This document shows positions 41,043 to 44,430 of a stretch of 64,000 bases of DNA, one piece after another. Position 1 is the first letter of the stretch; every line of letters begins with the position of its first letter. The notes below the pieces were generated by a model. The model ran no database searches. It saw nothing but the letters and a program-made list of their open reading frames with translations, and had not been told where the DNA came from. The position numbers and the translations under genes were made by a program. The DNA is from Bacillus gobiensis (lineage in GTDB: Bacteria > Bacillota > Bacilli > Bacillales > Bacillaceae), in assembly GCF_001278705.1 (NCBI RefSeq), contig NZ_CP012600.1:3879417-3943416 (forward strand). Reading direction: 5' to 3'.

Positions 41043-41051
41043 TGTTTCATG

Positions 41052-41111
41052 ATAATAAAGTTGTTTAAATCATAATAAAGTCGTTTAAAAAATAATAAAG
41101 TCATTTAAAAC
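41052..41111 (+). repeat. Three contiguous 20-bp TnsB-type binding repeats (left end)
   Basis: ATAATAAAGTTGTTTAAATC (41052-41071), ATAATAAAGTCGTTTAAAAA (41072-41091) and ATAATAAAGTCATTTAAAAC (41092-41111) repeat with an exact 20-bp period. Confidence 0.88.
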
Positions 41112-41375
41112 TTAAACGTCAGTTATGCTATTTAACAATCGGGTCATATTGCGGAATAACGAATCAAACTTTTTGTAAACTTATTTTCGTGATTCACTCC
41201 GGAATAAATTTTAGTTGAGCCAATTTCTGAATGATGGTATCCAGATTAATTGGCTCTTAATTTTTATTAAATACGTAATATACATATATATTGATGTGTT
41301 GCCTTGCTGCCATGAGGTTTAGAATCCCTTGAAAAATGGATCTATGGCCGACTGTAAGAATCCAAAAGCTGGGGA

Positions 41376-41723
41376 TTATAAATTGGTATTAGGTTCAGTC
41401 TGGTCCGCATAGGAGACTCCCCAATCAGATAGAGTTGTTAAAATCGGTAAAAGACTTTGACCAACATCAGAAAGAGAGTACTCTACTTTAGGCGGTACTT
41501 GATTATAAACAAATCGATTGATAATACCGTCCTGTTCTAATTCTCTAAGCTGCTTTGTTAACATTTTTTGTGTAATCTGTGGTAATTCTCTTTTTAATTC
41601 ACCAAAACGCATATTTCTTTCACCCAGATACCATAAAATTAGTACTTTCCATTTACCTCCTATAAGCTGCAATGTTAATTCTATTGAACATCTAAATTCT
41701 TTATCTTTGTATTTCACCAACAT
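41376..41723 (-). CDS. HxlR-family transcriptional regulator (element cargo)
   Basis: The 115-residue protein is a MarR/HxlR-type winged helix: [20 protein letters not shown] (residues 12-31), [40 protein letters not shown] and the basic wing [18 protein letters not shown]12, at the usual place of the redox-sensing cysteine of YodB/HypR-type members, is present. GGGAGGG is seven bases before the start. It is divergent from the NmrA-like gene, with a palindrome between, so it likely controls that gene in response to electrophiles or oxidants; this is inference from family members. Confidence 0.9.
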
Positions 41724-41755
41724 GTTTTTTCCCTCCCGCTTATAGATAATAACAC

Positions 41756-41773
41756 AGTATCAAATTGGATACT
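41756..41773. promoter_or_regulatory. HxlR operator candidate
   Basis: AGTATC-AAATTG-GATACT is a perfect 6-bp inverted repeat with a 6-base spacer between the divergent HxlR and NmrA-like genes, matching in size the operators of YodB/HxlR regulators. Confidence 0.65.
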
Positions 41774-41888
41774 ACGTGTCATAAAAGTGCCTACTTGTTA
41801 TTTTTATACCATAGGCAGTATTATTAGTACCAGATTTGTTTTGAAGGCAAAAGCCAAAATAGCAAAGCAAATAGTGGAGGTGCAAACT

Positions 41889-42797
41889 ATGTACGTAATA
41901 ACAGGAGCAACTGGAAGAACAGGCAGCATAGTAGCAAATTATTTATTAGATAAGGGACAGACGGTTAGAGTGATTGGTAGAAACTTAGAACGCTTAACGC
42001 CTTTTGTACGCAAAGGAGCAGAGCCGTTTGTCTCTGAACCTACAGATGAGGCAAGATTAATTGAGGCCTTTTCGGGGGCTGAAGCAGTCTATGTGATGCT
42101 TCAACCTAATTATATTATAACTAGCAATGACTTTCCCGCTTATCAAAAGAGTGTAATAAGCGCAATAACATCTACATTAGAACAGGCAGAAGTTAAAAAT
42201 GTTGTCTCTCTTAGCAGTTGGGGAGCAGATAAAGAAAAGGACACTGGACCTGTTACAGGATTACATCTGCTTGAACAGCGCTTAAACCAAATTGAACAGC
42301 TGAATGTTTTACATTTACGATCTGGATACTTCATGGAAAATTTACTTTCACAAATTAAAAACATTATATTTCATAATGTTGCAAGAGGACCTTTTCTACC
42401 CGATGTTCAGTTCCCTATGATTGCCACACGTGACATTGGGCGAATTGCAGGAGAAGCTATGCTAAAACGTAACTATCAAGGTCAACAAATAAGAGAGTTG
42501 CACGGAAGCTGTGATTTGAGTATGAGTGAAGCGGTGAAGCTTATAGGAAAAGCTTTTGATAAACCAAACCTCAACTATATACAAACAACCGAAGAAGAAG
42601 CCCGAAAAGAAATGAGAATGAATGGGTATTCAGAACATATTATAGGCCTTGTTTTAGAAACAACAAGAGCCTTAAATACAAAGCACATCAGGATGTTGGA
42701 ACAGCGGACGTTCGAAAATACATCCTCGACTTCATTTGAAACTTTTATAAATGAAGTATTTATACCTCAATATGAGAAGGAAGCGGCTCAAATATAA
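41889..42797 (+). CDS. NmrA-type NAD(P)-binding reductase (element cargo)
   Basis: The 302-residue protein begins MYVITGATGRTGSIVANYLL, a GxxGxxG dinucleotide motif at residues 6-12, and follows the NmrA/YtfG (quinone reductase-like) pattern with VVSLSSWGADKEKDTGP and HLRSGYFMENLLSQIK. The start is ATG 41889, eight bases after GTGGAGG. QorB/YtfG relatives reduce quinones with NADPH, which fits control by an HxlR redox regulator next to it. The frame is intact. Confidence 0.88.
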   Translation: MYVITGATGRTGSIVANYLLDKGQTVRVIGRNLERLTPFVRKGAEPFVSEPTDEARLIEAFSGAEAVYVMLQPNYIITSNDFPAYQKSVISAITSTLEQAEVKNVVSLSSWGADKEKDTGPVTGLHLLEQRLNQIEQLNVLHLRSGYFMENLLSQIKNIIFHNVARGPFLPDVQFPMIATRDIGRIAGEAMLKRNYQGQQIRELHGSCDLSMSEAVKLIGKAFDKPNLNYIQTTEEEARKEMRMNGYSEHIIGLVLETTRALNTKHIRMLEQRTFENTSSTSFETFINEVFIPQYEKEAAQI

Positions 42798-42860
42798 AAA
42801 TAGTCTAACCGCAATAATTGATGTGAGAGGTCTGAAGGTAACTTATAAGGAGGCTTTGCC

Positions 42861-43784
42861 ATGCAACGCAGACGAATAGGGAACAGTAATCTAGAAGTAT
42901 CAGCTCTTGGATTAGGTTGTATGACCATGTCCGATTTTTATGGAAGCGACAGGGATGAGCAAGAATCCATATGGACGATTCATCGTGCATTGGAACTTGG
43001 TGTGGATTTTTTGGATACGTCGGATATGTACGGTATCAGAGAAAATGAAAAATTAGTGGGAAAGGCAATTAAAGACCGCCGTCACAAGGTCAATGTAGCT
43101 ACCAAGTTTGGGGTAGTACGCGACAACAGAGGAGGGATGATGGGATATAACGGAAAGGCGGAATATGTTAAGGATGCCTGTGAAGCAAGCATGCGCAGAC
43201 TAGGTACTGACCATATCGATCTGTATTATTTGCATCGTATCGATCCCTTTACGCCGATTGAGGAGACTGTAGGCGCGATGGCTGACCTGGTGAAGGAAGG
43301 CAAGGTTCGTTATATCGGTCTTTCTGAGGCTCCACCAGATATGATACGCAGAGCACACGTGGTTCATCCAATATCGGCAGTGCAAACGGAATATTCCTTG
43401 TGATCCCGGGACATTGAAGACGAGGTTCTTCCTACCTGCAGGGAGCTTGGCATCGGGTTTGTAGCCTACAGTCCACTTGGGCGCGGTTTCCTGACAGGTA
43501 CGATTCAACGAAACGAGGATTTGGGGTACGATGATATTAGGCGGAATTCCCCTAGATTTCAAGGACGTAACCTACAGAAGAATCTACAATTTGTTGCCCA
43601 GATTCAAAAAATTGCTGCCAAGAAGGGATGCACGGCTCCTCAATTAGCACTTAAATGGATCCTTATGCAAGGAAACGATATTGTACCTATTCCAGGAACG
43701 AAAAAAAGAAAATATTTAGAAGAAAATATTGGAGCTTTGCAGGTTGAGCTTACTAATTCGGATCTTAAATTAAATAAAAATTAA
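42861..43784 (+). pseudogene. Aldo/keto reductase with in-frame TGA and lost C-terminus (element cargo)
   Basis: The frame starts [20 protein letters not shown] with the AKR barrel motifs [20 protein letters not shown] (catalytic Asp and Tyr) and TKFGVV (catalytic Lys), then [12 protein letters not shown] with the histidine. At 43401-43403 a TGA replaces the Trp found in relatives (EYSLWSRDIE); the same frame then runs on to 43784. The end at SDLKLNKN is about 20 residues short. A piece of a matching C-terminus lies farther down. The gene follows the NmrA-like gene after 63 bases, likely in one operon, with AAGGAGG before the start. Confidence 0.88.
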
Positions 43785-43799
43785 TCAATAACACAAGTC

Positions 43800-43836
43800 A
43801 AATTCCTTAACGTAAAGGTATTTGGCTTTTTGCATG
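43800..43836 (+). terminator. Rho-independent terminator inside the element
   Basis: CAAATTCCTT pairs with AAGGTATTTG (one mismatch) around a short loop, followed by a GGC-TTTTT tract. Confidence 0.7.
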
Positions 43837-43877
43837 TTGTATTTTGATTAGCGTACAAAATTTCCGAAATGTTGGCT

Positions 43878-43940
43878 GTACCCCTTAAACAAATTAATGA
43901 AACAGCGCCAAAAAATGTTGCCGCAGGCCCCCGATAATAT
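43878..43940 (+). pseudogene. Aldo/keto reductase C-terminal remnant
   Basis: One frame reads PLKQINETAPKNVAAGPR, which is the C-terminal helix-loop of AKR11-type reductases (usually QINEIAPKGVAAGTRY). No start is present. It may be the displaced tail of the gene just upstream or a second gene's remains. Confidence 0.65.
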
Positions 43941-44280
43941 TTTAAGATACCTACGGAAACTCCAGTTGTTGCTATAACATTGGAGGCATTTCAGCAGGAT
44001 TAATAATGGCTGAAGCCGGGTTTTAAAATAAATTGCACCGTTTTTTCCCCTTTAGTTCTGATTTATCTAAAGGGGTGTCTTTATGTCCAAAGGAAAAGGG
44101 GCAACTGAAGATAATCACTGATTTCAATATTTATACAAAAAGTTCTTTATTTTACTTGACTCATTATTTATGGGCAAAATCTTTTTCTTATTCAAGTAAC
44201 AGGGAAACGAGAAAAATTGTAATTGTATTATCTTGAAATCGAGTCTTCTGCTAAAGGGTGCGATTGTTGTATAACCTTTA

Positions 44281-44422
44281 GATTTAAACGACTTTATTGT
44301 TTTATCTTTGGTATAGAAAAAGTGTTTTACATGAAAATTAAACAACTTTATTTTAACACCGCCCACATTTATGGACGATGTTATGCGAGTTTATAGCATT
44401 GATATTAAACAACTTTATTGTC
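44281..44422 (-). repeat. Three spaced TnsB-type binding repeats, inverted (right end)
   Basis: On the minus strand: ACAATAAAGTTGTTTAATAT at 44402-44421, AATAAAGTTGTTTAATTTTC at 44333-44352 and ACAATAAAGTCGTTTAAATC at 44281-44300. Spacing is about 53 and 69 bp, in contrast to the contiguous left-end copies. Confidence 0.85.
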
Positions 44423-44430
44423 GCCGATCA

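Follow-up and report, generated by a model that had tools for sequence, protein, structure and literature searches.

How 3,388 bp of DNA without a transposase gene came to interrupt an alpha-amylase gene is the question raised by a stretch of 64,000 nucleotides from the Bacillus gobiensis genome (the window; positions 3,879,417 to 3,943,416 of NZ_CP012600.1, assembly GCF_001278705.1). In window coordinates, a complete element at 41043-44430 lies between the 5' part of the amylase gene (40305..41042, plus strand) and its 3' part (44436..45233, plus strand). We consider it very likely that we are dealing with a natural mini-Tn7, in other words with a non-autonomous satellite in which Tn7-type ends have been kept, host genes take the place of the tns genes and TnsABC would act in trans.

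Ends and target site of the window element

The pentamer CTTGG stands directly outside both ends (41038-41042 and 44431-44435), as the left and right copies of a target duplication, and the element itself begins with TG (41043-41044) and finishes with CA (44429-44430), the termini being placed 11 bp outside the outermost AATAAAG. The left end (41043..41115, plus strand) was recognized by its site pattern: it opens with TGTTTCATGAT, followed by three contiguous TnsB-like AATAAAGTYRTTTAA sites at 41054, 41074 and 41094, 20 bp apart from start to start in both steps. The right end (44240..44430, minus strand, the part aligned for the spaced-end model R1 used below) contains three inverted sites (44283-44298, 44337-44352 and 44404-44419), with spacings of 54 and 67 bp, before the terminal CA. 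The duplication, the termini and the two arrays of repeats had all been described in the initial annotation of this DNA and were confirmed. The word AATAAAGTYRTTTAAW, with at most one mismatch, has six matches in the 64-kb window and all six are inside the element, where 0.18 matches were expected for the window and none of 100 shuffles reached six. Between its middle and outer sites, the right end has an imperfect hairpin (44355..44382; consensus AACACCGTCC..GAACGGTGTT) that most of the aligned family ends retain, and sequence comparison revealed, beside the left sites, a palindrome-like inner motif, TATTTAACAATCGGGTCATATTGCGGAATAA (41129..41159), and, beside the right sites, a palindrome half, CTAAAGGGTGCGATTGTTGTATAA (44251..44274). 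Rfam gave no match near the element at E 0.1.

The element combines what is expected of Tn7-type ends, namely several inverted TnsB-like sites per end, in a contiguous array on one side and a spaced one on the other, a 5-bp target duplication with TG..CA termini, and a site word that is also present beside tnsA of autonomous TnsABCD elements. It is not an autonomous Tn7 element: no tnsA, tnsB or tnsC is present inside, its open reading frames (ORFs) encoding HxlR, NmrA and aldo/keto reductase proteins, and tblastn with TnsA-E gave no match within it, which upholds its earlier description as non-autonomous and Tn7-like.

Joined through a single CTTGG, the flanks read ...NWGTW-YANEL..., and their alignment with the uninterrupted amylase gene of another species of the same genus (G029) is gapless at the junction, with 1,008 of 1,444 positions identical (70% at the nucleotide level) and 28 gaps elsewhere. 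The proposal that excision restores the reading frame exactly holds at the junction, but not for the whole gene: the window amylase has a second lesion apart from the insertion, an in-frame TAG at 40452-40454, and because of it excision alone would not yield an open gene. Similarly, the empty-site allele that the initial annotation suggested looking for in sister strains was found, but in another species.

Elements with the same ends in Bacillales

The spaced-end model, a sequence-only model built from 12 aligned right ends (window included), matches 99 of 397 genomes of the order, in 50 of 126 genera; since at most six candidates were scored per genome and some matches are left ends on the other strand (one of three in the window's own genome, G000), these match numbers are not copy numbers. 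Elements of this kind had been called rarely described in Bacillaceae, which may hold for the literature, but their ends are not rare. In a phylum-wide draw the model matched five of 299 genomes, three of the same order and two marginally (2.0e-4 and 4.6e-4). Twenty stretches of named genomes contain the exact spaced-end pattern; going by these names, which range from Anoxybacillus and Thermolongibacillus to Lysinibacillus, Priestia and Salibacterium, we take all of them to be Bacillales. In viral contigs the pattern had no match. The right end was also matched in 11 plasmid records, several of them with a nearby left end and genes between. One plasmid filed under Klebsiella grimontii (CP079755.1, L031) carries two right ends of this Bacillales family, and its organism label may be wrong.

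A 5-bp duplication exactly at the predicted termini was observed in 13 of 52 sequences tested. In all, we identified 16 distinct tns-less elements with exact 5-bp duplications, ranging from 710 to 12,472 bp (the window element, L017, L024, L030, L114, L121, L122, L129, L139, L141, L142, L148, L199, L212 and, in the genome G397, C5:146441-148243 and C5:80667-82680), L148 and L017 lacking the final CA; three further elements (L111, L123 and L032) have duplications with one mismatch. L131 was dropped as an exact-duplication element, because its left site is weak and TG is absent. In a stricter pairing test on 61 spaced ends, 56 of which have CA, 12 of the 56 could be paired with a left TG terminus and an identical 5-mer at a site score of at least 12, and again 12 at the laxer scores of 8 and 4, while 5-mers taken from other loci as controls were paired in 0 of 1,094, 1 of 1,093 and 2 of 1,092 cases at scores of 12, 8 and 4, respectively. 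One of these 12 is L121 fetched twice (L205), and further duplicate fetches among the 56 are likely.

Twenty elements (the 16 with exact duplications, window included, the three with one mismatch and L026) were searched by tblastn with TnsA, TnsB, TnsC, TnsD, the second TniQ and two TnsE-type proteins, and no match was obtained. Their cargo is varied. In Priestia filamentosa a MepB protein lies within a 716-bp element flanked by TTAGT, and Peribacillus has a NUDIX hydrolase in one of 710 bp flanked by AAAGG; in Peribacillus asahii an NHL-repeat protein is carried by an element whose duplication has one mismatch. Further cargo comprises DUF3231, a zinc alcohol dehydrogenase with a cupin, an abhydrolase with TetR, an AraC-type regulator with a short-chain dehydrogenase/reductase, MerR with a zf_CopZ protein, an AviRa-like rRNA methyltransferase, DUF2975, DUF817, DUF4937 and others. 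On the Exiguobacterium plasmid NZ_CP101463.1, tet(L) is located between family ends (L026, 10295-12174), with a left terminus without TG and no matching duplication found.

Ends can be nearly identical around cargo that shares no blastn similarity, as in the right ends of L121 and L129 (97% over 170 bp) and of L129 and L142 (94% over 197 bp). Just inside the sites, one side of the palindrome TTATTCAACAATCGGGYGCGATTGTTGAATAA was detected, with at most 4 mismatches in 16 positions, on the left in 10 and on the right in 12 of 18 small elements; random windows taken from these loci had it in 2.5% of cases, and five autonomous ends in none. In the B. gobiensis genome the palindromic repeat occurs at 38 places with at most three mismatches, versus five for a reversed control, a count in which one palindrome may figure twice, once per strand; examples of intergenic copies are L015 9318-9394 and 11628-11657, and L151 1501 and 2712. 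The repeat borders both the inner edges of the satellites and gene units elsewhere in the genome. The latter are small units without TnsB sites, and the palindrome is sometimes present on both of their sides.

Autonomous partners and the proposed movement in trans

Searching related genomes for the repeat, as the initial annotation had advised, gave not only paired ends but also tns-bearing elements whose site word is identical or almost identical, and the Tn7 kinship that it had claimed for the ends was borne out by glmS-resident Tn7-type transposons. In the genome G045, a transposon of about 17.5 kb beside glmS, with AGAAA on both sides, encodes TnsA, TnsB, TnsC, TnsD and a second TniQ; its tnsA-side end contains four sites about 20 bp apart with the same word as the window element. 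The word AATAAAGTTGTTT is present beside tnsA in G045 and G342, and AAAAAAGTTGTTTAA, one base different, in G126 and G397. The far-end spacings agree closely (54 and 67 bp in the window, 55 and 66 in G045, 55 and 67 in G126 and G397); the far end of the G342 element was not found within the stretch examined. All four of these autonomous elements (hereafter masters) adjoin glmS. Pfam identified TnsD in G045 and G397, for G126 and G342 tblastn did so, and a TnsE_C domain protein is encoded in three of the four (G342, G126 and G397), G045 having instead the second TniQ/TnsD; the TnsE-like protein of G342 had no match among PDB sequences at E 0.01. The G126 element is flanked by ATCTA. In the same region (L187+L188, C8), two Tn7-type copies stand side by side, at about 1-1369 (partial) and at 1374-21507.

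With the TnsB of G045 as query, matches were obtained in 50 of 397 genomes at E 1e-100, and 30 of these 50 loci were scanned over about 1.5 kb on each side. Strong tnsA-side sites were present in the query and its two closest relatives, G342 (56%) and G126 (59%); at the thresholds used, the other 27 loci gave two weak sites in L184 and none in the remaining 26. On this ground, and for the 30 loci scanned, the other Tn7-like TnsB proteins of the order were rejected as the source of these ends. Other Bacillales genomes encode TnsB proteins of 50-62% identity (best 120 of 1,978 matches). No cognate TnsB above 47.4% identity was found on plasmids among the matches listed (40 of 460 records). Two plasmids filed under Stenotrophomonas rhizophila (CP031730.1 and CP065518.1) encode a TnsB of 47% identity; here too the organism label may be wrong.

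Master and satellites are found together in Anoxybacillus caldiproteolyticus DSM 15730 (G397). Its autonomous element (9629-24329 of L215+L216), flanked by GTTTT, is located beside glmS (the GlmS being 70% identical to that of G342) and encodes TnsA, TnsB and TnsD (57, 65 and 47% identical to those of G045), a TnsE-type protein and TnsC. The TnsB frame is open except for a stop before the start, and the protein matches the Tn7 TnsB in the PDB (7pik) at 8.8e-119. The same genome holds four satellites with exact duplications; its 17 matches to the spaced-end model at E 0.01 include the far end of the master and at least two left ends of satellites already counted. Two of the satellites have left ends that are 100% identical (88 bp) and right ends that are 98.5% identical (200 bp), between different duplications, GGAAG and AGTGA. 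The tnsA-side end of the master reads TGTCGAGTAATAAAAAAGTCGTTTAAA; these two satellites read TGTTGAGTAATAAAAAAGTTGTTTAAA. Four copies with their own duplications and no Tns match were thus observed in G397, and a way of working like that of miniature inverted-repeat transposable elements (MITEs) and mobile insertion cassettes (MICs) would in addition require movement in trans. Among 12 named genomes with the spaced-end pattern, a TnsB match at 1e-50 was obtained in two, G397 (62%) and a Lysinibacillus (40%). A 402-aa cargo protein in G397 is presumably threonyl-tRNA-synthetase-like, by a resemblance that we recognized, and the satellite at C5:146441-148243 (L227) contains two tandem ORFs of 123 aa that resemble each other, apparently through duplication of a cargo gene.

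The proposed mobilization by a TnsABC-like system elsewhere in the window's own genome was not supported. This genome (4,597,587 bp, complete, one contig) gave no Mu-transpos_C (TnsB) match, TnsA, TnsC and TnsD not having been searched for individually, nor did the cognate TnsB match anything in it at E 1e-100; no TnsB-like site of at least 7 bits was found within 1.5 kb of its glmS (3797199-3798998). There are two rve matches, one of them below the family cut-off; the other we take, from its ORFs as judged by eye, for a short IS3-type gene. A TnsB acting in trans from this genome was rejected on the basis of the Mu-transpos_C, cognate-TnsB and rve searches and, since no TnsB is detectable there, the window element is an orphan as far as tested. 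It is now stranded and decaying. A second small element in the same genome (L017, 1683746-1685393, 1,648 bp) has TAAAT on both sides and CT instead of CA at its right terminus, and relics of left ends are present near 4430475 and 2861976.

According to family searches, the cargo of the window element comprises an HxlR/MarR-type regulator (41376..41723, minus strand), an NmrA-like NAD(P)-binding reductase (41889..42797, plus strand) and an aldo/keto reductase (42861..43784, plus strand), the frame of which is broken by TGA at 43401-43403. The stretch 43770..43887 matches, at 89%, DNA annotated as Tn3-family transposase in two Listeria innocua plasmids and, judged by this match, is apparently a Tn3-family relic within the cargo. 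None of the cargo proteins scanned belongs to a cas family; CRISPR arrays were not searched for. Tn3-related pieces also occur elsewhere in the genome (L015 12276-15277 and L150 3-950), with ORFs that resemble broken Tn3-family transposases.

Established Tn7 biology, together with the anatomy described above, suggests a mechanism for a natural mini-Tn7. The source of TnsABC for the window element would be an autonomous Tn7-type transposon of the kind found downstream of glmS, the TnsB of which is predicted to bind the satellite sites. TnsA and TnsB would then excise the satellite by cut-and-paste and, with the involvement of TnsC, it would be joined elsewhere, making the 5-bp duplication. Both the movement in trans by a master TnsABC and the identity of the target selector are proposals. 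No GlmS match was obtained for 19 of the 20 elements (flanks of 1.3 to 4 kb in total each), and therefore TnsD is probably not the usual selector; TnsE, or another selector, would send most satellites to plasmids and scattered chromosomal sites. The TnsE of Tn7 favours plasmids and replicating DNA. By analogy, TnsE, being present in three of the four masters, would be the preferred candidate.

Several observations weigh against this interpretation. Transposition itself was not observed. A matching duplication is absent from 44 of the 56 spaced ends and from 39 of the 52 sequences, from which we conclude that relics, rearranged copies and copies extending beyond the stretch examined make up the majority. 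The spaced end is present in 99 of 397 genomes, TnsB of at least 56% identity in only three, and two of the masters are damaged or doubtful, the TnsC of G397 lying in two overlapping frames and the TnsB of G126 having one internal TGA. The orientation of the elements relative to local GC skew was not significant (G-rich strand in 30 of 50 chromosomal cases, p 0.20, and in six of seven plasmid cases, p 0.125), and neither was a TnsE-like orientation bias deduced from ORF strand. Finally, the exception at glmS, L139 (G012:C1, from the window's genus), is the largest element (12,472 bp, exact duplication ACTAG); because it adjoins glmS and has no inner motif on either side, it looks like a reduced master and not like a scattered satellite; either the loss of tns genes from a master or TnsD-directed targeting in trans could account for it. 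We had considered its multi-gene cargo as a siderophore-type cluster and dropped this idea, since TPR and methyltransferase families were the only matches of the two proteins scanned.

L139 also fits the alternative in which the small elements arose independently of one another, by internal deletions that removed the tns genes of autonomous Tn7-type transposons, and no satellite lineage exists. In favour of this, the far ends of autonomous elements are homologous to the spaced ends of the small ones, those of G126 and G397 matching the satellite model at 4.9e-10 and 1.2e-22, respectively. The inner palindrome, however, is common in small elements and absent from the five autonomous ends, and nearly identical ends, as in L121 and L129, enclose different cargo; on account of these two features a satellite lineage is favoured, L139 remaining the exception that fits deletion, and we regard independent deletions as an unlikely origin of the small elements as a whole. 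Far less probable still is that the ends belong to another 5-bp-duplication transposase (Tn3-, Tn552/Tn5053- or CRISPR-associated transposon-type) and not to a Tn7-type TnsABC, since, although 5-bp duplications occur in several transposon families and a stretch of the window cargo matches Tn3-family transposase DNA, autonomous TnsABCD(E) elements have this site word, this arrangement (contiguous on the tnsA side, 55/67 on the far side) and this TG..CA offset.

For the satellite lineage itself we tentatively hypothesize a standing population in Bacillales, composed of cassettes of one to few genes, with the glmS-resident masters as hubs: TnsD would park the master, TnsE or a second TniQ would let the same TnsABC scatter the satellites to plasmids as well as chromosomes, and cargo would perhaps be gained beside the palindromic repeat. 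This broader picture is possible, and we hold it with clearly less confidence than the nature of the window element.

Known systems and significance for Bacillales

Satellites share with Tn7 and glmS-directed Tn7-like elements a contiguous array of TnsB sites at one end and a spaced array at the other, the TG..CA termini and the 5-bp duplication, and their partner elements, beside glmS, encode TnsA-D and, in three of four cases, a TnsE_C protein. They differ in having no tns genes, in being mostly short, in their flanks, which in 19 of 20 cases have no glmS match, and in the inner palindrome, which is absent from five autonomous ends. Laboratory mini-Tn7 vectors carry cargo between Tn7 ends, with the transposition proteins supplied in trans; the satellites have the same layout and would depend on the same kind of supply, but they are natural, their cargo consists of various host genes, and their site word, that of Bacillales, is a different one.

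Trans-mobilized, non-autonomous elements are already known as MITEs, MICs and Tn3-derived inverted-repeat miniature elements (TIMEs). MICs consist of passenger genes between insertion sequence (IS) ends, without a transposase, and are moved in trans. Satellites resemble them in having passenger genes between transposon ends and no transposase, and probably in their movement, but MICs use IS ends, whereas satellites use multi-site Tn7-type ends and would use a heteromeric transposase. One such cassette, MIC231 of Bacillus cereus, is named in PMC6542083. TIMEs and other prokaryotic MITEs are described as non-autonomous and mobilized in trans, with composite TIMEs that carry genes (PMC4133298; PMC10969869); satellites are comparable in these respects, trans-mobilization being presumed for them, and differ in that TIME ends derive from the Tn3 family. 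The survey of Tn7-like elements in PMC8649781 started from tnsB and scanned up to 125 kb on either side, and tns-less elements would be invisible to it for that reason. In titles and abstract openings we found no description of a tns-less Tn7-type family, nor one of this reach, most subscription papers and all bioRxiv preprints being out of reach.

As a cultured thermophile with a master and satellites, A. caldiproteolyticus DSM 15730 offers a natural pair that can be tested directly, and a natural system in which to examine the division of targets between TnsD and TnsE. The cargo between satellite ends includes reductases, a MepB-like protein, a NUDIX hydrolase, MerR with zf_CopZ, an AviRa-like rRNA methyltransferase and tet(L). 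If satellites are common, some of the movement of small genes in Bacillales could depend on machinery borrowed from Tn7.

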